Source: an uncultured Candidatus Melainabacteria bacterium (GTDB taxonomy: Bacteria; Cyanobacteriota; Vampirovibrionia; Gastranaerophilales; Gastranaerophilaceae). Taken from it: a stretch of DNA of 64,000 nucleotides. Under the pieces are notes generated by a model that was not told where the DNA came from, searched no databases, and saw only the letters and a program-made list of their open reading frames with translations. The stretch is taken from contig CANAJP010000002.1 in assembly GCA_947361615.1 (NCBI GenBank), forward strand, positions 18,344-82,343. The letters are read 5' to 3'. The position numbers and the translations under genes were made by a program. Below, piece after piece: positions 23,731 to 64,000 of the stretch; the first letter of the stretch is position 1, and each line of letters begins with the position of its first letter.

Positions 23731-24890
23731 ATGAAAAACTTAAAAGCTGAAAACCCTTGTAGTGTAGCCTTTTCCACTGAGGGGGGGGGGGGCAAGACTT
23801 AGTTAGTGAAAAGTCGTTAGTTAAGAGTCAAGAGTTCAATATGGGGAATAAACCCGTGCGTAGCGCGCATAACGAACTCCTTACTCATTACTCTTCACTC
23901 CTCACTAACTCTGCGTTTACGATGGCTGAAATATTATTATCCCTCACCATCATCGGCGTGGTTGCGGCAATTACATTACCAAGTTTAACCGGAAACATTA
24001 ACGAGCGCATGTGGAACACGCAGCGCAAAGCACTTTATGCTAGATTTTCACAGGCTATTTCTTTAATGCCTGCTCTTAACGGATATGGAACTTTAACTCA
24101 GGACGCTAGCGGAAGTGTTACGACAGATACAGCAACGGAAACTTTTATCACCGCAGGACTGGCCAAAGTTTTAAAAATTAACAACATTTGTGATAACGAT
24201 CACCTGCCTGAGTGCGGAATTGTATCTTCCATCATAAATATGGGTGTGACTAAAATCACAACGCCTAAAAATCTTTACGAATTAAATAACCACTTCCAAA
24301 GTGCTTCGGTGTATGGGTTAGCAAATTTTTCGGCTATTAATACCAAAGCTGCCGCGTTTGAAACACAAAATGGGGAAAGTATCATTGCCTACTATAACCC
24401 CTCTTGTAGGACTCAATATTTGAGCAACGAACAAATGAGTTCAACTATGAATACTTTTGGGTACCCGCAAACTACTATGTGTGCGAATTTTATCTATGAC
24501 TTAAACGGGCTTAAAGGGCCGAACACTGTTGGAAAAGATATTGGTTTTATAACTGTATTCAATGCCATTGATTCAATCGTAGTCGCTCCAATGCCGTCTG
24601 CTAATACAAATGCAACATTCGAAGGTTCTAATAATATGATTTGGAATAACGCAGCAAAAGCATGTACGCTTCAGGATTCAGAAAGCAGAATTCCAAATAT
24701 TGAAGAAGCATCTGCTATGTTAATTAATAAAAATTTAATCAATTTAAGCAGCGCACCAGCAAATTATTATTGGACAAGCACAATTCTTGCAACTAACCCT
24801 AGACAAGCCTGGCAAATTGTTCCCAACAAAGGGATTCGAACAACTGAGTACAAAACACAGCTACGCTTTGTTAGATGTATAAAACGTTAG
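23731..24890 (+). CDS. type IV prepilin-like surface protein, poly-G contingency gene (frame broken by G12 at 23781-23792); ORF-track start 23841
   Basis: SAFTMAEILLSLTIIGVVAAITLPSL; C-terminal YYWTSTI…LRFVRCIKR; an upstream ATG with RBS is fused in-frame if the G tract is 13 nt. Confidence 0.8.
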
Positions 24891-28176: not shown

Positions 28177-29378
28177 TTATCGTTTAACACACCAGACAGG
28201 ATAGTTTGTACCAACACCCCAATCGTCAATCTCTCCAGTGCCCATATTTGCTGCAATACCAACAAGGTTGCCGTCCCTCGGCCTTGTTTGAACGGTTGAC
28301 GACCAATAAGTGGTATTTGTAAATCCTACCGGTTGCAACAATTGTTTATTTACGAACATTGCATAAGTTTCTTCCAGATTAGGCAAACGGTATTCCGCAT
28401 CCATGTTCGTACAAGCTTTTCCCGCGTTTCTTTGTGCTGATGCAGGTAATGTTTTCGCTGCCGCTTGCGGCGCAATAACTACCGGATCACTTGGATATAA
28501 AACTGTCATAACTCCAATATCTTTACCCACAGTATTAGGGCCTTTGTTACCGTTTAAATCAAAAACAAAATTTGCACAAACCGTTCGTTGATAAAGAGAA
28601 CCAGCCGCCTGGCCTGATGAATTAACACCCCAATTGATATCATTCAAGGAGCCCATACAATACGGATTTACATAAGCTATAATACTTTCTCCATTTTTCG
28701 TTTCAAATGCAGCAGCTTTTGTATCCTTGACATAGAAAGACTGAACACCATTATTGAGAGAGCCAACCATTTTAGGGTTTAATTCTTTCATAGTTGTCGG
28801 TACGCTTTGGGTAGAGCCAGCCATTGTCGTGATTTTACTTGAAATTCCGCAATCATTTAAATGAGTATTATCGCAAACATTATTAACTTGAAGAACTTTA
28901 CCTAATACATTTGTCACAAAAGTTTCGGCTGCGGTATCAACACCATCACCGGCACCTGAAGAACTTTCTTCTGTTACAGTTGCATAACCGTTCAACGCCG
29001 GCATTAGGGCAATTGCCTGTGAAAATCGCGCATAAAGAGCTTTTCTCTGAGTGTTCCATGTACGTTCGTTAATGTTACCGGTTAGCGATGGCAACGTTAT
29101 CGCTGCGACCACGCCGATAATTGTTAATGATAGCAGGATTTCGGCCATGGTGAAAGCTACTCGTTGTACAGTAGCCCGCAAACCCATTATGGAACCCGCT
29201 TGACCGCGGGTGTCATGCTGAACTCGTTTCAGCATCTGGCCAGCGTGGAATTCTACCAGTGACGTTTGACAGATCCCGAAACAAGTTCGGGATGACAAGT
29301 GGGAGTAGAACGCCCCACTATTTCTACCAAAGAGGCTCCCCCCCCCCCTGTCAAAGTGTTTACAATTTTGTTTTTCAT
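28177..29378 (-). CDS. type IV prepilin-like surface protein, poly-G contingency gene (frame broken by G11 at 29338-29348)
   Basis: AFTMAEILLSLTIIGVVAAITLPSL; ATG at 29378 (MKNKIVNTLT-GGGG…) fuses in-frame if the tract is 12 nt; ORF-track start 29298 is a TTG inside a palindromic repeat. Confidence 0.8.
29211..29296. repeat. palindromic repeat of the GTCATGCTGAAC family, inside the prepilin leader region
   Basis: GTCATGCTGAACTCGTTTCAGCATCTG … CAGATCCCGAAACAAGTTCGGGATGAC. Confidence 0.85.
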
Positions 29379-34413: not shown

Positions 34414-35559
34414 TCCATCCGACGAATACAGTATAAACTCATACCACGCAATTCTGCTTTAGTTGTACAGTTACGATAGCCTATAGCTGTACTTACCCGC
34501 CAGGCCTTTCCACTATCGCATGAACTTGTTGTCCAAAGTATTTCTGGAAGCGAAGAGCCTAAGAATTTTTTATTTACAAATACAGCCGCACCCTCGTCAT
34601 AATTAGGTGCTCTGCCTTCACCATAACGTTCCTTGCATAATCTATTAGCTGCACTAAAATCACCACCTTGTCCAGAAAGCGAACCGTATGGTGAAACAGC
34701 TACTACATTTGAGTCTGACGGATACATTACGGTAATAAACCCGATATCTTTACCAACCGTGTTCGGGCCTTTAGAACCATTCAAATCATAAACAAAATTA
34801 ACACACATAGATTTTTGTGCATAATTAAGTTTTTCACCGTTTGAACGTTGTTCATCTATATCCGCAGTACAAGCAGGGTTATAATATGCAATAATACTCT
34901 CACCGCTGATCGTTTCAAAGGCTCCCGCATCAACATCAGCAACAGTCACCGAATGTGTATACGTACCACCGGCAGAATTAGTAAATACTTTATAATAGCT
35001 AAATGCAGAGTTTAAATTATATAGAGTATCAGGAACAGAAGCAAGCTGCGAACCGTTAAAATCAGTAATTTTAGACGGAATTCCACAATCAGCTAAATGC
35101 TTGTTATCACAAATATTATTAATTTTTAAAACTTTTGACAAACCATCGGTCAAAAAGGTCTGTGTTGCTATAGATTTTGTTTCTGACGTAGTTGCCCCTT
35201 GCCCATAACCATTCAATGCAGGCATTAAAGCTATTGCCTGTGACATACGTGCATAAAGTGCTTTTCGCTGCGTATTCCATGTGCGCTCGTTTATGTTTCC
35301 TGTCAATGACGGCAAAGTTATCGCCGCAACTACACCGATAATTGTGAGAGATAATAATATTTCCGCCATAGTAAAGGCCAAGCCGAGCGGAGCCACGGAG
35401 CGAAGCGGAGAGACGAGCGCGCGACGCGGCAAACCGCGCTTTGGCACGCAAGCGCGAGCGGTGGCGTTCAACGCGAGGCGCAGTTCTAACGCCCCACTAA
35501 ATATACCTAAGAGAGGCCCCCCCCCCCCCTGTCCATGTTAAGACATTAAGTTTTTTCAT
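34410..35559 (-). CDS. type IV prepilin-like surface protein, poly-G contingency gene (frame broken by G13 at 35517-35529)
   Basis: AFTMAEILLSLTIIGVVAAITLPSL; ATG at 35559 (MKKLNVLTWT-GGGG…) in-frame with 12 G; ORF-track start 35471 is a TTG. Confidence 0.8.
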
Positions 35560-38924: not shown

Positions 38925-40104
38925 TCACCGTTTCACACAATACGCATCCAATCTATCCGCAGGAGTGGAACCACCAAATCCTTGGACCAAAACAGCGGTA
39001 CCGGCATTTGTAAACAACCCTTTGACTTTACCACCTTCAACAGCCGTAGATGACCACAAATGCTGCCCCGTCTTAATATCATATAATTTGTGGTTAACAA
39101 ATAACGAAACCAATTCCTCAAAATTGGGCAGACGATATTCCTCATCCATTTTTCTACAAGCAGATACTCCCTCTTGGAAATAAACGTGGTGCAAAGCTTC
39201 TTTATTATTAATAACCGGCGCAACTACAACGCTATCGCTTGAATATAATGCCGTCATGACACCAATATCTTTGCCCACAGTATTTGGCCCTTTTGAACCA
39301 TTCAAATCATAAAGAAAATTCACACAAACTTTCGACTGTACTTTATAAGAAGTTCTTTCATTCATGTTGGATGTACATTTCGGGTTATAATATACTACAA
39401 GACTTTCGCCGTTAGCCGTTTCAAAGGCCGCTACCTTTGTATTTTTAAACATTGAATAAGAAAGCATTTCGCCGTTCAAATCTGCGAAAGTAGCAGGAAA
39501 AGAAGCTACTTTATTTCCATTTACTGTATTAAAACCTTTGCTAGTAATACCACAATCATATAAATGTTCGCTGGCACAAATATTATTTATCTTTAACACT
39601 TTGGACAGTCCGGCCACAACAAAAGTTTCTGCGGCAGTATCTTCTGCATCGCTTGCACCTGCTGAACTTTCTTCTTTTAGGGTTCCATAACCATTTAATG
39701 CAGGCATTAACGCTATCGCCTGCGAAAATCTCGCATAAAGCGCTTTACGCTGAGTATTCCAGGTTCGCTCGTTAATGTTACCTGTTAATGACGGCAACGT
39801 TATCGCAGCAACTACACCGATTATCGTTAGGGATAAAAGAATTTCAGCCATAGTAAATGCAATACAGGTCACCCTTTTTCTGTCATGCTGAACTCGTTTC
39901 AGCATCTGTCCAGCGCTACATTCTACCGGTGTCGTTTGACAGATCCCGAAACAAGTTCGGGATGACAAATGTAGTAAACACATTATCCTTATTAACTTAT
40001 TAACATGCCAACTTATTAACTCGGCGTTCTCTTCTATTAGGCGTGGGCCGTTAAGAAAACTCCCCCCCCCCCCCTGATAAAATGTTTACATTTCTCTTGT
40101 TCAT
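38925..40104 (-). CDS. type IV prepilin-like surface protein, poly-G contingency gene (frame broken by G13 at 40062-40074)
   Basis: AFTMAEILLSLTIIGVVAAITLPSL; ATG at 40104 (MNKRNVNILS-GGGG…) in-frame with 12 G. Confidence 0.8.
39880..39965. repeat. palindromic repeat of the GTCATGCTGAAC family, inside the prepilin leader region
   Basis: Same inverted-repeat arms as 29211-29296. Confidence 0.85.
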
Positions 40105-43188: not shown

Positions 43189-44463
43189 TTACAAACTTGC
43201 AAACAAGCCCAAGAATTCAGGGAACGAAATATCTACCCATTCAAAATCTTTAACCAGAATTTCTTTTTCAGCAACAAGGCCTGCAACATATAAACTCATT
43301 GCTAAACGATGGTCGTGATAAGTTTCAACCTCCGCACCGCCCGTAATTTTGGCCTTACCATTGACAATAAATCCATCAGAAGTTTCTTCTATGTCTATGC
43401 CGATTTTTTTCAATTCACAAACCAGCGCAGAAATCCTATCTGATTCCTTGTTGCGCAAATCTCCTGCATCTTTTACAACCGTTTGACCCGCAGCCTGAGA
43501 GGCGAGAACGGCAATGACCGGAAGTTCATCAATCAAACGCGGAATAATTTCTCCACAGATTTGACATGCCCGTAAGTCAGAATATTTTACACGTAAATCG
43601 CCGACAGGTTCGCCTGCACTTTCACGCGCGTCCAAAATTTCAATATCTCCACCCATAGCGCGTACAACATCTAAAATCCCCGTTCTTGTAGGATTTAGCC
43701 CGACATTTTTCAAAATAATATCACTATTTGGAACAATCAACCCTGCAACGATAAAAAATGCGGCTGAGGAAATATCTCCGCAAATATCAATTTCTTTTGC
43801 GGTCAACCCAGAGCGTTTCACGGAAACCTTTTTACCCTCTACCGTCAAATCTGCGCCTAAATACTTAAGCATTAATTCGGTATGATTTCTGGAAACATAA
43901 GGTTCTGTAACCGACGTAATGCCATCGGCAAAAAGTCCTGCCAGAAGTACACAGGATTTAACCTGCGCAGACGCAATTTTAGAAACATAATCAATCCCAT
44001 TCAATTCACGCCCGAAAATTTTCAAAGGAGCATGCCCGTCCACGGCCTCGACACACCCACCCATAAGCGAAACCGGCTCAATAACACGTTTCATAGGACG
44101 TTTAGAAAGACTCGTATCACCAATTAACGTGCAATCAAAATTCTGACCGGCTAAAATCCCCGTCATCAATCGCATAGTTGTACCGGAATTCCCACAATCA
44201 AGTGCTTGCAAAGGCAGTTGCAATTTTCCGTCCGAAAAAATTTCCAATGTTTTTTCATCAAGGAATTCATGCCTGATACCCAGCCGCGAAAAAACCTCAA
44301 GCGTCGAATGCGGGTCAGCACCACTCGAAAAATTCTTTATCAACGATTTTCCTTTTGCAAGAGATGAAAACATAACCGCTCTATGCGAAATCGACTTATC
44401 AGCAGGAATTTCAACACAGCCGCGCAACCCGTTTTGATTTTTTGAAACTTTTATATTTGTCAT
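43189..44463 (-). CDS. aroA: 3-phosphoshikimate 1-carboxyvinyltransferase
   Basis: PADKSISHRAVMFSSLAKG; DCGNSGTTMRLMTG; KESDRISAL. Confidence 0.96.
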   Translation of the reverse strand: MTNIKVSKNQNGLRGCVEIPADKSISHRAVMFSSLAKGKSLIKNFSSGADPHSTLEVFSRLGIRHEFLDEKTLEIFSDGKLQLPLQALDCGNSGTTMRLMTGILAGQNFDCTLIGDTSLSKRPMKRVIEPVSLMGGCVEAVDGHAPLKIFGRELNGIDYVSKIASAQVKSCVLLAGLFADGITSVTEPYVSRNHTELMLKYLGADLTVEGKKVSVKRSGLTAKEIDICGDISSAAFFIVAGLIVPNSDIILKNVGLNPTRTGILDVVRAMGGDIEILDARESAGEPVGDLRVKYSDLRACQICGEIIPRLIDELPVIAVLASQAAGQTVVKDAGDLRNKESDRISALVCELKKIGIDIEETSDGFIVNGKAKITGGAEVETYHDHRLAMSLYVAGLVAEKEILVKDFEWVDISFPEFLGLFASL

Positions 44464-44467
44464 TGCG

Positions 44468-47137
44468 TTATTTTAACATAAATTTTAAATTTTTATAAGG
44501 GATATCTAATTTCCAATTAGCTTTGTCAAAAATATTATCTTTAACAAAATGAAGATTATCATTATCATTAAACGGATTAGTTTTTCCCTCATAGCAAGAT
44601 GGCTGCCAAACATGACCTGCTTTGATATAAACACCATTTTTCTTTTCAGTTATAATTTTTTTACCAGTGAATGGATTCACAGCGTCTTTAATAAGGCCTT
44701 TTACCGCGATATATGGAACATCCGCATTAGTCATAAATTCCTGCGAAGTTTTAAATTCATCCTTTGAATTAAAATCTTTTATAATTAACAATGGATTATA
44801 AGGCATAATATACGTATTCTCAAACTTCGAAAATGTTGGGTTAACAACATCCCGTCCATGGTCAGAAACAATTATAATTCTTGTGTTATTATAAACACCG
44901 TTTTCTTTTAGAAAATCCATATATTTACCAAGCATTATCAAAGAAGTGGCATTAACATGGTAATGCTTTAATGCATGAGAGTTATCCAAAAATCCATGTA
45001 TATCGTCAGGAACGCCAAGAGAGGCGTCCAGAGTAAAATCATCTCCGTAAAGTAAATTAGGTTCATGAGGTAAATCGTTATTAATTACAATAAATGAATT
45101 TTTACCTTTTGAAAAACCTGTTAACTGAGGCAGGTAATAAAGTTCTGCATAATTTTCCACCAAATACGAAGAATGATAATCTATCAGATTTGAATTAAGG
45201 TATTTCCCTTTATTATAAATATATTTTCTAACAGCCGGTTGCGATACAGTCATCAAACTATAATATAGAAAGTTTCGCATAGTTAATTTCGTATTCTTAT
45301 CATCCAAATCACCATTAGCCATAAATGCAGAGCCTAAATCGCCTCTGACCTTTTTATAATTGACGCCTCTTTCACCGTAAATTTTGTCTGTTTCAAGCCA
45401 TTTATAACTCCAATCATCCCCCGGAGCATCCGCAACAGTCGCTTGCCATCCTTCTTTCGCAAATAAAGCAGGAAGCATTCCCAACGCTTCAATATATTTA
45501 TCAATAACAGAACCCGTCGTATTTTTAGCCATATTTAATGGAGTGTACTCATATCCGCCTAATATCGTCTGATATCCAAGGAAAGTATACCCCGCCATCG
45601 AAACAGTGTTCGGATAATAAACAAATCCAGAAAATTCATCTTTCAACTCGGGTTTTTCACTGAAAATCAACGGCAAATAAGAACTCAATGCCCTATCGAG
45701 GAATATAATCAATACATTCTTATTATCCGTGCTAAAGTTAAACGTATTCGATTTGTCATAAGATTTAGCATTCGCAACAGACGCCCTGTAAGTACGATGT
45801 TCCTTATAGATTTTCACATAATTTACGCCTGTTGAAACAATAAGAGAGCAGGCAACAATCATCACCAAACTTTTAAGGGATTTTCTCGCGAATAAAAACA
45901 ACGCAACAATAACAATAAATCCACCCAAAAGACACAGCGGATACAACATACCCTCAGGCGATGAAAAATATACAGTTTCGGCATCAAATTTTAGCGTATT
46001 CAACAAACTACACTCAGGCATAGGTATCAAATAGACATTCAAAATCCAGTAAAACAAAAGTAAGCTACTGACAAATGCCATAATTTTACGAGTATTCTGT
46101 GACGAAAGAACAAAAAAGCATCCACCCCAGAATAAAAACAATCCGAAAGCCTGTAATGCCGGAACCATCATTATTCCAAAAGGTGTTATGCCGGAAGCTA
46201 GGAAAGTAAATTCCACCGGTGAAGTTACAACGACATTTGATGGTAGCAAAACGCCGACAAACAGCCACAATGCCGCACAAGTTATAAAATATAGCCACTT
46301 TGGATTAAAGTTGCAGAGAAACTTTTTAATAAATCCCATCTTCGGCGCCAAAACCATCAAGCCAAGTATTATAATGATTATATCCAGATTCAAATAATAT
46401 TTCTTCGCAATTACATAATAAATTACCAACGCCGAAGCCATAACACATTTAACAAACGCTTTTTCACCCAGCCCTCTCAGCCCGAGATTTTTGATTAATG
46501 AAAAGAAGTTGTTAAACGTCCAATACAAAACAAGCCCTGATGGCGAATTATATAAAAGTACCAAAAACACTAAACTCATAATATACAATTGAGCATTTTT
46601 CTTAAACGACTTATCTTCTGTATAAACATAAGCCGCGCAAATATTCACAAGTGTCATTACAATTGGAAGAAGATTTATAGACACAGCTCCAAGCTTAATA
46701 AGTCTATCCGGTTCCGCAAGACTTGAAACATTTAACAAGGCCGTTTCATTGAATATCTGCAAATGCGAAAAGAACAAATACGCAGCAAGAAAAAACGGTA
46801 TTTGCAGTAATAAACTAAAACTTAATCGTAATGCCATCACAGGATGGTAATTATTCTGCCTGTAATAAGTCTGTAACAAAAGATGTTTTTCATCACCGGA
46901 AAAATTCTTCTTGATACTGTTAACACGCGCAGCCATTTTAGCCTGAATGCTCTCTTCTTCATGTTGAAGTTTCGCAGCATTCAAATACAATGGTAAACAA
47001 AACAAAAAAACAATATAACTTATCAACAAGATAGTAAGCGCAATATTAGCATTCGTCATCGTATATAACGCATAAAACGAACTCTCAAGAGCTGCATAAA
47101 TAGGATAAATTATGATTTGAAATAGTGCCTCTAACAT
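44468..47137 (-). CDS. YidC/Oxa1-like insertase domain fused to a sulfatase/alkaline-phosphatase-superfamily domain
   Basis: N-term YYRQNNYHPVMALRLSFSLLLQIPFFLAAYLFFS…LYNSPSGLVLYWTFNNFFSLIKN; further TM helices; C-term NVLIIFLDRALSSYL…INNDLPHEP…IIIVSDHGRDV. Confidence 0.85.
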   Translation of the reverse strand: MLEALFQIIIYPIYAALESSFYALYTMTNANIALTILLISYIVFLFCLPLYLNAAKLQHEEESIQAKMAARVNSIKKNFSGDEKHLLLQTYYRQNNYHPVMALRLSFSLLLQIPFFLAAYLFFSHLQIFNETALLNVSSLAEPDRLIKLGAVSINLLPIVMTLVNICAAYVYTEDKSFKKNAQLYIMSLVFLVLLYNSPSGLVLYWTFNNFFSLIKNLGLRGLGEKAFVKCVMASALVIYYVIAKKYYLNLDIIIIILGLMVLAPKMGFIKKFLCNFNPKWLYFITCAALWLFVGVLLPSNVVVTSPVEFTFLASGITPFGIMMVPALQAFGLFLFWGGCFFVLSSQNTRKIMAFVSSLLLFYWILNVYLIPMPECSLLNTLKFDAETVYFSSPEGMLYPLCLLGGFIVIVALFLFARKSLKSLVMIVACSLIVSTGVNYVKIYKEHRTYRASVANAKSYDKSNTFNFSTDNKNVLIIFLDRALSSYLPLIFSEKPELKDEFSGFVYYPNTVSMAGYTFLGYQTILGGYEYTPLNMAKNTTGSVIDKYIEALGMLPALFAKEGWQATVADAPGDDWSYKWLETDKIYGERGVNYKKVRGDLGSAFMANGDLDDKNTKLTMRNFLYYSLMTVSQPAVRKYIYNKGKYLNSNLIDYHSSYLVENYAELYYLPQLTGFSKGKNSFIVINNDLPHEPNLLYGDDFTLDASLGVPDDIHGFLDNSHALKHYHVNATSLIMLGKYMDFLKENGVYNNTRIIIVSDHGRDVVNPTFSKFENTYIMPYNPLLIIKDFNSKDEFKTSQEFMTNADVPYIAVKGLIKDAVNPFTGKKIITEKKNGVYIKAGHVWQPSCYEGKTNPFNDNDNLHFVKDNIFDKANWKLDIPYKNLKFMLK

Positions 47138-48528
47138 TCGCTAACTTCTTTCTGCTTTGCAACCAAAAAATCTACAACTCTAACAGCACTTTCACCTCTA
47201 TACTGCCAGGCTACATCTTTTGCCGACTCAATAACATTCTGAGGAACAGTTTCCCCTATCTCACTTATTATTTGAACAACATCAGAAAGATTTTCTCTGT
47301 TTAATTCTTTGCCAATCTCTTTAACAACACAGTAACGCCAAGGAGTTTCATCCAAATCAGACATATCGTATAAATCAATATTCATCTCTGTATCTATATA
47401 TATAAAAGGTCTGTTAAATAAAAATGCATAATCAAACATTACACACGAAAAATCACTTATCATAATATCAGCTTTGCTCAAAACATCAAGGTTGTTAGAA
47501 TCAAAATTCCAGCTAATATTCTCATAATCTTTAAAATCATTCATTAATTTTTCAACGACATCACGCTCAGCAGTCATTGATTGTGGGTGCGGTCTAACAA
47601 CGATATTAAACGAAGATTTTGATAAATGACCTAAAAGCTCGGCACCAAATTTGCACAATAACCCATCCGGCCCCCAACTCGGTGCAACCAAAACCGTAAC
47701 TGAATTGTCATTCCTTGAGAGGAGGCCCCCCCCCCCCCCGGCTAGTTCGGCCGCGAGAAAATCCATATATGTACTTCCAACAACCGGTAATTCCTTGGCC
47801 GGAAGATTTCTTTTCATTTCTAATTCACGGATTAATGGAACCTGATATTCTCCATCACACAAAACTGAATCATAATAATCAACCCCAAATAAATGGTAAT
47901 CAACAGATATCCCTATAGAATGAAAAATATGACTATAATGCTTCACAAACTTAGAACGTTTTAACTGCAATACATCCAACTGTGGAGTCGTCATCAAACA
48001 AACATCCGCACGCAAAAAAGCCAGCTTAAAATATGCACTGTTTCCCTGTCCGATATATTCGCCTGTAACATATTCATATTTTTCATCGAAAAACGGATCA
48101 TCATCGCTAGAAGTCAAATAAACAAGCGGAATCTTACGTCGTTCAAACTCATCAAGAACGGGTTTAAAAACCGGGAAATATCTTGTGCCCTCAGAATAAA
48201 TTACAAAAGTTTTATTATCCTTGCTCAAACCACGTGAGGCAAAAAGAGAACCTTTCAGTTTTATAAATAAAGAATACAACACGAAATAAGCCGTCGCGCA
48301 CATACCTAATACGACAGAAAAGAGCATACTTCCCGTTCCCGGGTCAATATACGCCCACGCAGGAGTATAAAATCCGATTGCTATAAATATAAACAAAACA
48401 CTTGTAATAATCCGTGCAAAAGAAATTCCCATTTCCAGCTCTCCTAACAAGGAGTATCGCATAAAAATTTCAGAATAGCAAAAAAAATTTTTCAGGAGTT
48501 TATAATAAAAAATCATGGACATGTTCAC
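47131..48528 (-). CDS. CDP-glycerol:poly(glycerophosphate) glycerophosphotransferase-like protein containing an in-frame G14 tract
   Basis: SVTVLVAPSWGPDGLLCKFG, VVRPHPQS, ADIMISDFSCVMFDYAFLFNRPFIYID; poly-G encodes AGGGGGLL; true start likely downstream of 48528. Confidence 0.88.
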   Translation of the reverse strand: MNMSMIFYYKLLKNFFCYSEIFMRYSLLGELEMGISFARIITSVLFIFIAIGFYTPAWAYIDPGTGSMLFSVVLGMCATAYFVLYSLFIKLKGSLFASRGLSKDNKTFVIYSEGTRYFPVFKPVLDEFERRKIPLVYLTSSDDDPFFDEKYEYVTGEYIGQGNSAYFKLAFLRADVCLMTTPQLDVLQLKRSKFVKHYSHIFHSIGISVDYHLFGVDYYDSVLCDGEYQVPLIRELEMKRNLPAKELPVVGSTYMDFLAAELAGGGGGLLSRNDNSVTVLVAPSWGPDGLLCKFGAELLGHLSKSSFNIVVRPHPQSMTAERDVVEKLMNDFKDYENISWNFDSNNLDVLSKADIMISDFSCVMFDYAFLFNRPFIYIDTEMNIDLYDMSDLDETPWRYCVVKEIGKELNRENLSDVVQIISEIGETVPQNVIESAKDVAWQYRGESAVRVVDFLVAKQKEVSEC

Positions 48529-50197
48529 AGACTACAAAGCATATAAAGAATACCAGCCACAATATGCGAACTGGAAATATCAAAGGGATAAGCAGGAAGC
48601 TAAAAGACTCGCTTATCTTGAAAAGCATCCTGAATTAAAAAGCGAAAAAGATATTCAACGCGGCAAAACGTTATTAAAAGCCATTGACATTTTGGATGAG
48701 TATTCACAATCAAGCGCAGAAAACACAGAAATTACCACTGAAGTCGTTTCACAACAAATTCTCGGTATAATATCGCTTGCCGGAAGCGCCCTAGGATTTG
48801 GCGCAATGTATCTCAAACCAATCCGCAAACATTTTGATAAAATGGCAAAATCCAGCCAAACCCTTGAATTAATCGCCTCCCTTGTTCCAATGACCGTAGG
48901 TGGTGCAATTGCTTCTCTTGCAGCATTTCCAATAATGGCTTGGGCCGCTAAGACCGAAGTAGGTGCCTCACGCAAAGGACGCCTCGAAGCGATGAAAACA
49001 AAACTTCAAAACCCTGCGAACTTTGCCGTCTTAACCGATGAACAACTCACAAAGGTGAAAGAAGAAGCCCAAAACATAAAATTATCTAAAGAAGAAACCC
49101 AAACTTCAACGCCTAAATTCTCGTTCAAAGAATCTGTAAATATGCTCAAAAATTTTAATAAGCAGGAAGAACTCGAACGTCAAGACCGTGAAGAATTTAA
49201 AAAATTAATCAACGCTGAAAACGTTGAAGAAAATAACGAACTATCTGCCAAACAACTTGAAAACGCAAAACGCGATCAGCAAATTTTAACAAAACTCGTT
49301 GAAAAAATCGACATTGCCTCACAAGATTATGCTGAAAACGTCGAGTTTGCAACGAATTCTTTAACAATTTTATCACCGCTTTTCGGTGCTGGCGTAGGCT
49401 GGACAGCCAGCAAAATTAACAAACTCTTAAAAGTTAATGAGGGGAAAATCATCGGGAAAGTTGCACCTTGGGCCATTGGGCTTGTTGGCACAATAGCATT
49501 AGCCTCGCTATCAACGACACTTCAAAAACAAGCGTCCCGTGTCGGTCGTTTCAACGTAAGACAAGAACTTGCACGAAACCCTGAACAACTTATATACCTT
49601 GATGACGAAAAAGTTAACGCCGAAATCGATGACAATATAGCAGTAACGACTAAAAAACGCCCGAACTTCTTCAAATTCTTATGGCAAGTATTCAAAGATA
49701 ATCGGGCTTACAAAAAATATCAAAAAACAGAAGGACTTGAAGATAAAAAATTCAATAAAGCACTTGAAAAAATCGAATTAAGCGACGAACAACTTGCAGA
49801 AGCGAAAGTTCTTCAACGTAACACTTTCAAAACATTCAACAAACTTGATGAAATGTCTCAAAAATATTCTGAAAATGTTGAAGCAGTCGGGAACGCACTC
49901 AAACAACCAATAGGGCTGGTCTGCGGTACCATTGGCGCGCTGGTCGGCTTTAAATATTTAACAAGAATACCGGATTCAGTAGGAACAAAAGCTAACACGA
50001 TTAAAAATCTTGATGCGATATTAAAAGGTTCGCTGAAATATGTAACGAGTGTACTAATAAGTTACGTGCCCTTGATAGCATTTGATTTTTATATAACAAA
50101 AGAACAAAAGGCGGCATCCCGTGTAGCGAATATGCATGCTATAAACGAGCTAGGAGATGTTAAAAAATTTGCCGGTTATGACAGATTGACTGAATAA
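48515..50197 (+). CDS. membrane protein with three internal repeats
   Basis: IDILDEYSQSSAENTE, IDIASQDYAENVE, FNKLDEMSQKYSENVE, each followed by a hydrophobic hairpin. Confidence 0.75.
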   Translation: MDMFTDYKAYKEYQPQYANWKYQRDKQEAKRLAYLEKHPELKSEKDIQRGKTLLKAIDILDEYSQSSAENTEITTEVVSQQILGIISLAGSALGFGAMYLKPIRKHFDKMAKSSQTLELIASLVPMTVGGAIASLAAFPIMAWAAKTEVGASRKGRLEAMKTKLQNPANFAVLTDEQLTKVKEEAQNIKLSKEETQTSTPKFSFKESVNMLKNFNKQEELERQDREEFKKLINAENVEENNELSAKQLENAKRDQQILTKLVEKIDIASQDYAENVEFATNSLTILSPLFGAGVGWTASKINKLLKVNEGKIIGKVAPWAIGLVGTIALASLSTTLQKQASRVGRFNVRQELARNPEQLIYLDDEKVNAEIDDNIAVTTKKRPNFFKFLWQVFKDNRAYKKYQKTEGLEDKKFNKALEKIELSDEQLAEAKVLQRNTFKTFNKLDEMSQKYSENVEAVGNALKQPIGLVCGTIGALVGFKYLTRIPDSVGTKANTIKNLDAILKGSLKYVTSVLISYVPLIAFDFYITKEQKAASRVANMHAINELGDVKKFAGYDRLTE

Positions 50198-50226: not shown

Positions 50227-50313
50227 AGAGAGGTGTCCGAGCGGTTTAAGGTGCAATCTTGGAAAGGTTGTGTGGGAGTAATTCCACCGTGGGTTCGAAT
50301 CCCATCCTCTCTG
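50227..50313 (+). tRNA. tRNA-Ser (GGA anticodon)
   Basis: AGAGAGG…CCTCTCT acceptor, CAATC-TTGGAAA-GGTTG anticodon arm, long variable arm, GGGTTCGAATCCC. Confidence 0.95.
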
Positions 50314-50698: not shown

Positions 50699-52687
50699 GT
50701 GAGTATGGACAATGCTTATATAAATATTAATAAGATAGCAGAAGCTAAAGGGTTGAAAAGTAATCGCTCTCTGCGATTAGAAATTAACAAACCACTCAGC
50801 AAATACGTTTCACGTAAGGTTCAAGTCAATGGCGGAACATCATACGAAATTTTGTTTGCAAGTCTTGAGCCAGAACTTCAAGAAAAATTAAGAGAGTGCG
50901 AAACCAAATCCACTGCAATCGTTCCATTAAGTTATACTCCAACTAATTTCGTTTCCGAAAGTGCAAGGTTAACAGCCTTAGCGAGAACAGACATCGTTAT
51001 AGCTTTATTAAAGTTTAGAACTAAATATTCCACCAAGAAGCAAGCAGATGCAGACTTTTTAGATTTATATAATTCAGGATTATATATGCCGAAAGTATTT
51101 AAGTTTATTGGCACAATCTCCATTGGGACTCTGCATCGGTGGGTCAGGGCTTATGAAAAATATGAAACATTTGAGTGCCTTACTCCGCAATACAAAGTTG
51201 CGAAGCAAGGTGAGTACAATTCAATCTTAAATCAGGAAATGAAAGATATTTTACTCAGTCTATTATGCCACCAAAATCAGTTTAATTTCGGTAAAGCTAT
51301 TCGTTTAACTAAAGAAATTCTTAGAAAACGAGGCTATGAGCATTTACCTTGTGATTTATCTTTTAAACGTTTTGCCGAAAACTTCAAACAAAACAACTAT
51401 GCAGAATGGGTTCTGAAACGTGAAGGCATGAAAGCATATCATGACAAGGTTGAACCATATATTGAGAGAGATATTTCTAAAATTGATGTCGGTGATGTGA
51501 TTGTTGCTGACGGTCACGTTCTAAACTTCCATGTTATTAATCCATTTACTGGCAAGCCGACTAGAGCAACTCTAGTCGGCTTTTTAGATTGGAAATCCAC
51601 AGCTCTTGTTGGCTACGAAATTATGATGACAGAAAATACGCAATGTGTTGCATCGGCTTTACGTAACTCAATTTTAAATCTCGGGTTAATCCCAAAAGTT
51701 GTGTATCAAGATAACGGAAAGGCTTTCAAATCAAGATTTTTTCAAAACGTAGACTTCGAAGAGGAGGGGTTTAACGGAGTGTATGCAAATCTAGGTATCC
51801 ACTCCGTTTTTGCTAGACCGTATAATGCCAGAGCTAAAGTTATTGAACGCTTTTTCTTAGAATTCCAAGAAGAATTCGAAAAACTCATGCCTTCATATAT
51901 TGGTACTTCAATCGAAGATAAGCCTGCGTGGAAGAAGCGCGGAGAAAAGTTACATCTTGAAATGCATCAAAAAACAGATGCGAATATTCCAACGATTCAA
52001 GAAGTGATTAAATATATTGATTGTTGGCTTGAGTTTCACAACAAAAAGCCGTGTCCTAATAATCGTTCAAAAAGTATTCAAGAGATGTTAAACAGTGTTT
52101 CAAAACAAAATATTAATCCGCTTATTTTGAACGATTTGATGATGAAAACTGAATGTAGAACAATCAACAAACATGGAATCACTTTCCTTGGAATGCATTA
52201 CAGAAGTGAAGTTATTCTGGGGTTAAGAGAAAGAGTTTTTATACGTTACAGCCTATTTGATTTATCCAAAATACACGTTTATTCAGCAAAAGGTGAATTC
52301 TTGTGTATTGCGCATCGGGTTCAAAAGGTTCATCCGATGGCAAATGCTCTCGGAACCGTCAAGGATATGGAAGAATTTAAGCAACAAATTACTAAACAAA
52401 GAAAACTCAAAAATCGATTGATTAAAGAAGTCAAGAAAACCTTTAGCAAGGATGAACTTCAGGTATTAGAGATAGAACAAGAACCGATTATTGAAGTAAT
52501 TACTGAAAAGCCAAAGCGTGAAAGGAAGTTAAGTGTTCGTGAACAGCAGATGAACAGACCATTTTTTAATACTAATTACGAAAAGTACGAATGGTTAAAA
52601 CAGCACGGCTGTACAAGTGCAGAAGATAGAATTTGGATTAGTAATTATATAAAGTCTGATGAATATATTAATTTATACGGAGAATAA
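50699..52687 (+). CDS. MuA/TnsB-type DDE transposase (module 1)
   Basis: N-terminal HTH; core VIVADGHVLNFHVINPFTGKPTRATLVGFLDWKST…VYQDNGKAFKS…RPYNARAKVIERFFLEFQEEFEKL. Confidence 0.9.
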   Translation: MSMDNAYININKIAEAKGLKSNRSLRLEINKPLSKYVSRKVQVNGGTSYEILFASLEPELQEKLRECETKSTAIVPLSYTPTNFVSESARLTALARTDIVIALLKFRTKYSTKKQADADFLDLYNSGLYMPKVFKFIGTISIGTLHRWVRAYEKYETFECLTPQYKVAKQGEYNSILNQEMKDILLSLLCHQNQFNFGKAIRLTKEILRKRGYEHLPCDLSFKRFAENFKQNNYAEWVLKREGMKAYHDKVEPYIERDISKIDVGDVIVADGHVLNFHVINPFTGKPTRATLVGFLDWKSTALVGYEIMMTENTQCVASALRNSILNLGLIPKVVYQDNGKAFKSRFFQNVDFEEEGFNGVYANLGIHSVFARPYNARAKVIERFFLEFQEEFEKLMPSYIGTSIEDKPAWKKRGEKLHLEMHQKTDANIPTIQEVIKYIDCWLEFHNKKPCPNNRSKSIQEMLNSVSKQNINPLILNDLMMKTECRTINKHGITFLGMHYRSEVILGLRERVFIRYSLFDLSKIHVYSAKGEFLCIAHRVQKVHPMANALGTVKDMEEFKQQITKQRKLKNRLIKEVKKTFSKDELQVLEIEQEPIIEVITEKPKRERKLSVREQQMNRPFFNTNYEKYEWLKQHGCTSAEDRIWISNYIKSDEYINLYGE

Positions 52688-63178: not shown

Positions 63179-63935
63179 ACCAGTAATTCGTTACATTTGC
63201 ACGATCCTCGTGTTTTCCACCATGAATAGCATTCGCGACATAAAAATTACTTACAGTTACACTAGAAACTGGCGAACCTATACAATATTCACCTGAAATA
63301 GCACTCGCAAGCACAATCGGAACCACAGAATATTTCTTAGGGAAAGTATGTGTATTAAAACCTACAGCCTTTCCCCATTGTAATAACAGTATACGTGTTG
63401 TTTTTGAACTGTTTGAGAATAATTCAAAATAACTATCACCAGTTGTAACTGAAATATTGTAATATAGCCCATTAGCTGTTGCCGTAGATATCGCCGATTT
63501 TACGAATGCCGTTGTAGCTATTTTGGTCGAATTATCTCCCGTTGGGGGGGTAGGTGCCGCAGTGATGACATTACCATTTTTATCAACTGTTGCTTCAAGC
63601 ATAGCCGTAACATTGGTTCCATCAGGCTTGTTAAGTCTAGCAATCATTTGAGAACCCACTGCTCCTGATGTGGAAACGAAACTACGAAAATCACTGCGTA
63701 TTGTATTATTAGCATTTAATGTTCGAAAACTACGAATACGAACACTTTCAGGAACGCTTCCATTACCAGTAAAACCTGTATCTTTTAGCATGTGATGAAC
63801 TTGTCCATCTGCTAAAGTCGAAGATACAAATAGAGAATTTAAAAATGTCTTTATACCACTTATAGTTTCATTCCCAACTAAATGCATAAATTTTTTATCA
63901 ATGATACCATTTTCATTGTACAAATAAGCGGTTCG
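63162..63935 (-). CDS. phage tail fibre protein, C-terminal part (truncated by contig end)
   Basis: HLVGNETISGIKTFLNS; APTPPTGDNSTKIATTAFVKSAI; frame open up to the terminal poly-G. Confidence 0.8.
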   Translation of the reverse strand, partial: RTAYLYNENGIIDKKFMHLVGNETISGIKTFLNSLFVSSTLADGQVHHMLKDTGFTGNGSVPESVRIRSFRTLNANNTIRSDFRSFVSTSGAVGSQMIARLNKPDGTNVTAMLEATVDKNGNVITAAPTPPTGDNSTKIATTAFVKSAISTATANGLYYNISVTTGDSYFELFSNSSKTTRILLLQWGKAVGFNTHTFPKKYSVVPIVLASAISGEYCIGSPVSSVTVSNFYVANAIHGGKHEDRANVTNYWFAIGK

Positions 63936-63968
63936 GGGGGGGGGCCGGGGGGGGGGGGGGGGGGGGGT

Positions 63969-64000
<32 letters not shown>

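Follow-up and report, generated by a model that had tools for sequence, protein, structure and literature searches.

The window, which is the whole analysed stretch of 64,000 nucleotides from an uncultured Candidatus Melainabacteria bacterium, carries two overlapping minus-strand genes between aroA and a plus-strand gene. The downstream gene of the two encodes a fusion protein of 889 aa, and the upstream gene encodes a partner that resembles CDP-glycerol glycerophosphotransferases. The open reading frame of the fusion (44468-47137, minus strand) has no internal stops. In the encoded protein, an N-terminal YidC/Oxa1 core is followed by about seven more transmembrane (TM) helices and, at the C-terminus, by a domain of the sulfatase/alkaline-phosphatase superfamily. 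The main features at this site are as follows:

43189..44463, minus strand: aroA, flanking the inserted pair on the left
44468..47137, minus strand: 889-aa fusion of YidC-like, multi-TM and sulfatase-superfamily parts
47131..48528, minus strand: partner, CDP-glycerol glycerophosphotransferase-like, with a match to PF04464, upstream of the fusion
47726..47739, minus strand: in-frame homopolymer of 14 G in the partner, a candidate phase-variation switch
48515..50197, plus strand: 560-aa gene with no match in Pfam, flanking the pair on the right

The first-pass annotation of this DNA had proposed that a YidC/Oxa1 domain and a sulfatase-superfamily domain are joined in one 889-aa protein, and this description holds: Pfam 60KD_IMP matches all 15 intact family members and Pfam Sulfatase 13 of the 15 at E<=0.01, and the motifs quoted at the time are present at their positions in the fusion. 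An assembly chimera was considered and is ruled out, since 14 further intact copies, taken from independent genomes, have the same architecture at 34-81% identity. The fusion protein is thus confirmed as genuine. Full-length relatives are encoded in ten genomes of the same class (G003, G023, G030, G048, G212, G231, G235, G241, G288 and G292), of which the G003 fusion is 81% identical to the window protein, and in two genomes of a second phylum sample, namely G314 (a 'Candidatus Riflebacteria' MAG) and G334. The frequency of the fusion is 9 of 289 genomes for the class, 9 of 386 for the phylum and 2 of 39 for the phylum of G314. Beyond these two phyla, close relatives were sought in a scan of 84,980 species. 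In the family alignment, which comprises the 15 intact copies, the mean pairwise identity is 0.55 for the YidC core, 0.23 for the fast-evolving middle region and 0.41 for the C-terminal domain. A full-length structure model of the fusion, built from three sequences, reached a pLDDT of only 34.9 and was discarded.

The genomes G231 and G241 belong to one genus and have sister ordinary YidC proteins, yet their fusions stand apart in the tree, suggesting on phylogenetic grounds that the fusion has moved by horizontal transfer. No fusion relatives were found in viral contigs. A viral or plasmid origin was rejected, as the matches on plasmids and phages are restricted to the YidC part, with an identity of about 23%, and both of the plasmid matches examined are ordinary YidC proteins. 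Three intact copies of the fusion are present in G334, and G314 has one intact copy and two that are frameshifted in the YidC part. These last two (locus L033, 10483-13207 and 13307-16025) each consist of two ORFs and are broken at nearly the same place; they may be pseudogenes, result from an error in the assembly or share a lesion inherited from an ancestor.

The N-terminal module of the window protein and the codon of its most unusual position are located as follows:

46472..47125, minus strand: YidC/Oxa1-like core, aa 5-222
47006..47008, minus strand: codon of F44, the counterpart of the groove Arg (R366 in E. coli); the residue is F/N/S/T/C in 15 of 15 copies

The core has an amphipathic N-terminal helix, five TM helices and the C1 hairpin, and is marked by the signatures IKKNFxGDE, YRQNNYxPxxxLR and LYNSPSxLVLYWTFNN. 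The window fusion matches 60KD_IMP (PF02096) over aa 33-218 (E=1.2e-18, 68 bits, cut-off 35) and scores 66.5 bits against TIGR03592, below the cut-off of 84.3. With hhalign, the family is aligned to E. coli YidC with a probability of 97 (E=1e-10), and a PDB search with the family profile matched YidC structures (6y86, E=2.6e-7). The AF2 model of the domain is weak (pLDDT 50.8, only three sequences); the top three Foldseek matches of this low-confidence model are 3wo6/3wo7, with probabilities of 0.96, 0.91 and 0.85 and E values of 0.12-0.47, and the following matches have probabilities of at most 0.25. These top matches are to B. halodurans YidC. The five-TM core, the C1 coiled hairpin and the LYxxPSGLxLYW-NN core end are shared with the YidC/Oxa1/Alb3 family. 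The fusion differs from this family in the attached catalytic domain, in three additional residues, among them a conserved Arg/Lys, that are inserted ahead of the following TM helix, and in the replacement of the positive groove residue in all copies.

This positive groove residue has been described as strictly conserved in the YidC family (PMC8920935). It is absent from all 15 fused copies, whereas the ordinary YidC of the same hosts, which is encoded by a separate gene in every fusion host, has Arg at this position. In E. coli YidC, the charge of R366 is dispensable if residue 517 is aromatic (PMC8920935). The equivalent residue of the fusion, W206, is an invariant Trp, and a groove function of the fused module is consequently possible. 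Within the same hosts, the identity is 0.56 among fused cores and 0.58 among ordinary YidC proteins, indicating constraint on the module. A branch of 1.93 with a support of 1.0 divides the fused cores from every ordinary YidC in the tree.

The remainder of the fusion consists of a membrane region and the catalytic domain:

45803..46471, minus strand: middle region, aa 223-445, about seven TM helices
44471..45730, minus strand: sulfatase/alkaline-phosphatase-superfamily domain, aa 470-889
45695..45697, minus strand: D481, putative metal ligand, invariant in 15 of 15
45584..45586, minus strand: T518, putative nucleophile, invariant in 15 of 15
45065..45067, minus strand: H691, putative metal/active-site residue, invariant in 15 of 15
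44858..44863, minus strand: D759-H760, putative metal ligands in the SDHG motif, D and H invariant in 15 of 15

The loop charges of the fusion alternate, with a net charge of +1.2 to +3.6 for loops predicted inside and -1.7 to +0.5 for those predicted outside, placing the C-terminal domain outside the cytoplasm; an extracytoplasmic catalytic domain would also be expected by analogy with the related families. Pfam Sulfatase (PF00884) matches the window protein over aa 474-807 with E=0.0028 and 17.4 bits, below the gathering score of 25, and the best family member reaches 2.2e-7; weak Phosphodiest matches are seen in 10 of the 15 members. It had been asked earlier whether the metal and nucleophile residues are intact, and D481, T518, H691, D759 and H760 are indeed invariant, with roles assigned by motif rather than from a structure. 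The Cys/Ser-x-Pro-x-Arg motif of sulfatases is absent and a Thr is found where sulfatases carry Cys or Ser, indicating transfer chemistry of the LtaS/OpgB/EptA type and implying, from these residues, that the domain would not be a sulfatase but would transfer phospho groups by means of a Thr nucleophile. Judging from these families, the reaction would proceed through a Thr-enzyme intermediate.

Profile matches of this domain in the PDB include sulfatases, a choline-sulfatase, a phosphonate monoester hydrolase and LtaS (4uoo, E=0.0014), and these are weak and mostly centred on the SDHG motif. No full-domain hhalign alignment was found to E. coli OpgB, EptA or a neighbouring sulfatase; OpgB and EptA gave short motif matches only, covering 41 columns with a probability of 1.6 for OpgB. 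The fusion resembles LtaS, OpgB/MdoB and EptA in that an extracytoplasmic domain of the sulfatase superfamily, with the D, T, H, D-H set, comes after a TM region; with EptA, it also has the short motif Y-F/Y-PNTxS in common. It differs from them in the YidC core in front, in the missing full-length match to OpgB or EptA, and in a partner that suggests CDP- or CMP-type donor chemistry.

The adjoining gene had been annotated as a CDP-glycerol glycerophosphotransferase, and the score of 40.3 bits against PF04464 (cut-off 22.1) bears this out. In the window, the gene overlaps the fusion by 7 nt. The relatives of the partner likewise score above the cut-off. The probable start of the partner is the ATG at 48432, as in relatives. 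The catalytic region resembles that of TagF/TagB, with conserved HIFH and RPHP motifs, but the partner has its own hydrophobic N-terminal segment AYIDPGTGSMLFSVVLG (AYIDPGTGSM) and belongs to a clade tied to PepM clusters; it scores far below the cut-offs for TarF/TarL, and its profile gave no PDB match at E<=0.01. In every pair examined, the fusion overlaps or abuts the partner. Close partner homologues (E<=1e-88) are present in exactly the nine fusion genomes of the 289, with a Fisher p of 3e-17, which, like the other p values given here, is overstated because the sampled genomes are related.

Genes for head-group synthesis, either for phosphonates (PepM, Ppd, PhnW) or a TagD-like cytidylyltransferase, have been observed near the pair in six genomes. 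In G023, a PepM with a cytidylyltransferase domain, Ppd and an Fe-ADH are directly upstream of the pair; PepM and Ppd are near it in G314, and PepM, Ppd and PhnW in G334. A TagD-like gene lies beside the pair together with a methyltransferase in both G212 and G288, and near it with a class V aminotransferase in G292. On the level of whole genomes, PepM is found in 5 of 9 hosts vs 33 of 280 others (nominal p=0.0026), and PepM or a TagD-like gene in 9 of 9 hosts vs 92 of 280 non-hosts (nominal p=6e-5). Distant partner homologues occur without the fusion in 11 genomes, of which eight are PepM-positive (nominal p=2e-6), and in three of them (G072, G104 and G180) the homologue adjoins PepM and Ppd. 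In G072, which was counted as lacking the fusion, the contig breaks off within the partner, and a fusion is possible there.

In the window itself, head-group genes are not beside the pair. The same genome has Ppd, an NTP transferase, PepM, PhnW and LicD on another contig (C52), where PepM scores 418.9 bits against TIGR02320 (cut-off 319.55). As LicD is part of this aminoethylphosphonate (AEP) cluster, AEP may be the substrate of LicD rather than of the pair. A PepM is also present in G005, a genome in which the pair is absent. At the apparently matching site of G003, the LicD region is interrupted and contains a G15 tract, and it is accompanied by a TagD-like gene and a class V aminotransferase. 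The two loci (L145 on contig C52 of the window genome, 29-5307, and L149 on contig C7 of G003, 73-2770) are apparently one site with different cassettes, and an exchange of AEP/LicD and TagD-like/class V aminotransferase cassettes between genomes is possible.

The partner gene of G003 has 12 G in its tract and is split into ORFs of 245 and 215 aa. The comparison of these two genomes suggests that the tract could act as a phase-variation switch. A comparable case is Campylobacter jejuni NCTC12662, in which a CDP-glycerol glycerophosphotransferase in a surface-glycan locus frequently switches by loss of function, leading to phage resistance (PMC8949473); its mutations are spread over nine sites, one of them in a poly-T tract, whereas a single long G tract is present here. 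In the close relatives G002 and G005, the pair is absent and aroA directly adjoins the 560-aa gene, indicating that the pair was gained or lost as a unit at this site.

Taking these data together, we lean towards the reading that the overlapping pair is a system that decorates the cell surface and draws on cytidylyl-activated phospho- or phosphono-alcohols. Points that weigh against it are the absence of head-group genes beside the pair in the window, the LicD in the AEP cluster of the same genome, the presence of PepM in G005, which lacks the pair, and the weak profile matches of the C-terminal domain. As working hypotheses for the substrate, the acceptor and the role of the YidC-like module, the TagF-like partner, facing the cytoplasm, would take a phosphorus-bearing head group from a CDP-alcohol or CMP-phosphonate and load it onto a membrane carrier or growing chain. 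The extracytoplasmic Thr-type domain of the fusion would then hand this phospho- or phosphono-alcohol on to its acceptor, a glycan or lipid of the cell surface, via a Thr-bound intermediate, and slippage of the poly-G tract in the partner would probably toggle the system on and off. The YidC-like groove would most likely help the polar head of the lipid-linked intermediate to cross the bilayer, or present this head to the outer domain. This transport step is suggested by analogy, because purified E. coli YidC and other insertases scramble lipids in vitro (PMC10491306) and because the module is conserved. That the YidC/Oxa1 module has turned into a flippase specialised in a lipid-linked phospho- or phosphono-alcohol, fused to the extracytoplasmic transferase that uses this lipid, is put forward as a tentative and somewhat doubtful idea. 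The head group probably varies among loci, since related loci hold phosphonate-synthesis or TagD-like genes near the pair, and may be aminoethyl- or hydroxyethylphosphonate, glycerol-P or another group. Of the LtaS/MdoB-like phosphoglycerol transferase role that had been suggested at first, the data support a membrane-anchored transferase with a Thr nucleophile, of the kind seen in LtaS, OpgB and EptA, which carries a YidC-derived module and is encoded next to a CDP-glycerol transferase-like gene; phosphoglycerol is one of several candidates for the group that is moved.

A plain LtaS/OpgB-like phosphoglycerol transferase, which would use outer-leaflet phosphatidylglycerol independently of the partner and keep the YidC module as an anchor or assembly scaffold, appears unlikely. 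Its Thr-type active site and the LtaS match in the PDB (4uoo) would both be explained, and LtaS/OpgB-like enzymes are generally known to take an outer-leaflet phospholipid as donor, for which a flippase is unnecessary. The strict pairing with the partner and the repeated phosphonate or TagD-like neighbours, however, point to a cytidylyl-activated head group, and with a mere anchor one would not expect the YidC core to show stronger conservation (0.55) than the catalytic domain does (0.41). The improbable case of a hydrolase, in which the C-terminal domain would remove surface groups as a sulfatase, phosphodiesterase or phosphonate monoester hydrolase, could draw on the choline-sulfatase and phosphonate monoester hydrolase among the profile matches and on the weak Phosphodiest matches in 10 of 15 members; transfer is the better fit to multi-TM anchoring, a Thr nucleophile, the lack of a C/S-x-P-x-R motif and the strict association with a transferase gene, making this reading very hard to favour.

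YidC relatives are known as membrane-protein insertases, and the module could still be an insertase or chaperone dedicated to the TM region of the fusion itself or to the partner, which we regard as rather improbable. An ordinary YidC is already available in every host, the positive groove residue is missing in 15 of 15 copies, and both the family-specific YRQNNYxPxxxLR signature and the branch of 1.93 separate the module from ordinary YidC. The retention of the C1 hairpin and all core helices and the hhalign probability of 97 to E. coli YidC speak for such an activity, as does the tolerated loss of R366 with an aromatic residue at 517 (PMC8920935), given the invariant W206. Compared with these alternatives, the decoration system with cytidylyl-activated head groups remains the preferred reading.

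A YidC-sulfatase fusion was not found in the open-access subset of the literature that was searched, and the architecture may already be listed in a database. We know of no cellular reason for lipid scrambling by YidC relatives. A natural system for testing this scrambling activity would be a YidC core that is joined to a surface transferase and is about as well conserved as a genuine YidC, and the flippase reading, if true, would give the insertase fold a physiological role in lipid transport. The proposal also offers a late step for surface phosphonate pathways, of which the steps past C-P bond formation have been called enigmatic (PMC6697681). In the Pnt (phosphonyl tailoring) pathways described there, PepM, Ppd, PhnW and nucleotidyl activation likewise feed surface decoration, but the final step is performed by a LicD-like or glycosyl transferase, and neither YidC nor sulfatase is mentioned (0 occurrences). 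In addition, a phase-variable phosphonate or teichoic-like decoration is suggested in an uncultured gut-type lineage.

Some further observations concern the surroundings of the pair. Shortly past a tRNA-Ser at 50227, a Mu-type transposase (Mu-transpos_C) is encoded at 50699-52687 on the plus strand, and a Mu-like element probably lies to the right. The contig end at 63935-64000 has long G runs (10, 21 and 32), which are probably a sequencing or assembly artefact. Other G tracts of 11-13 in the window (23781-23792, plus strand; 29338-29348, 35517-35529 and 40062-40074, minus strand) are located upstream of a prepilin-like motif, AFTMAEILLSLTIIGVVAAITLPSLTGNINERTWNTQRKALYAR; for those on the minus strand, the upstream ATG and the pilin-like sequence are in different frames. 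Overlapping 10-G windows number 339-903 each in four sampled genomes of the genus, with none in G030, and a large phase-variable pilin-like family in the genus is possible.
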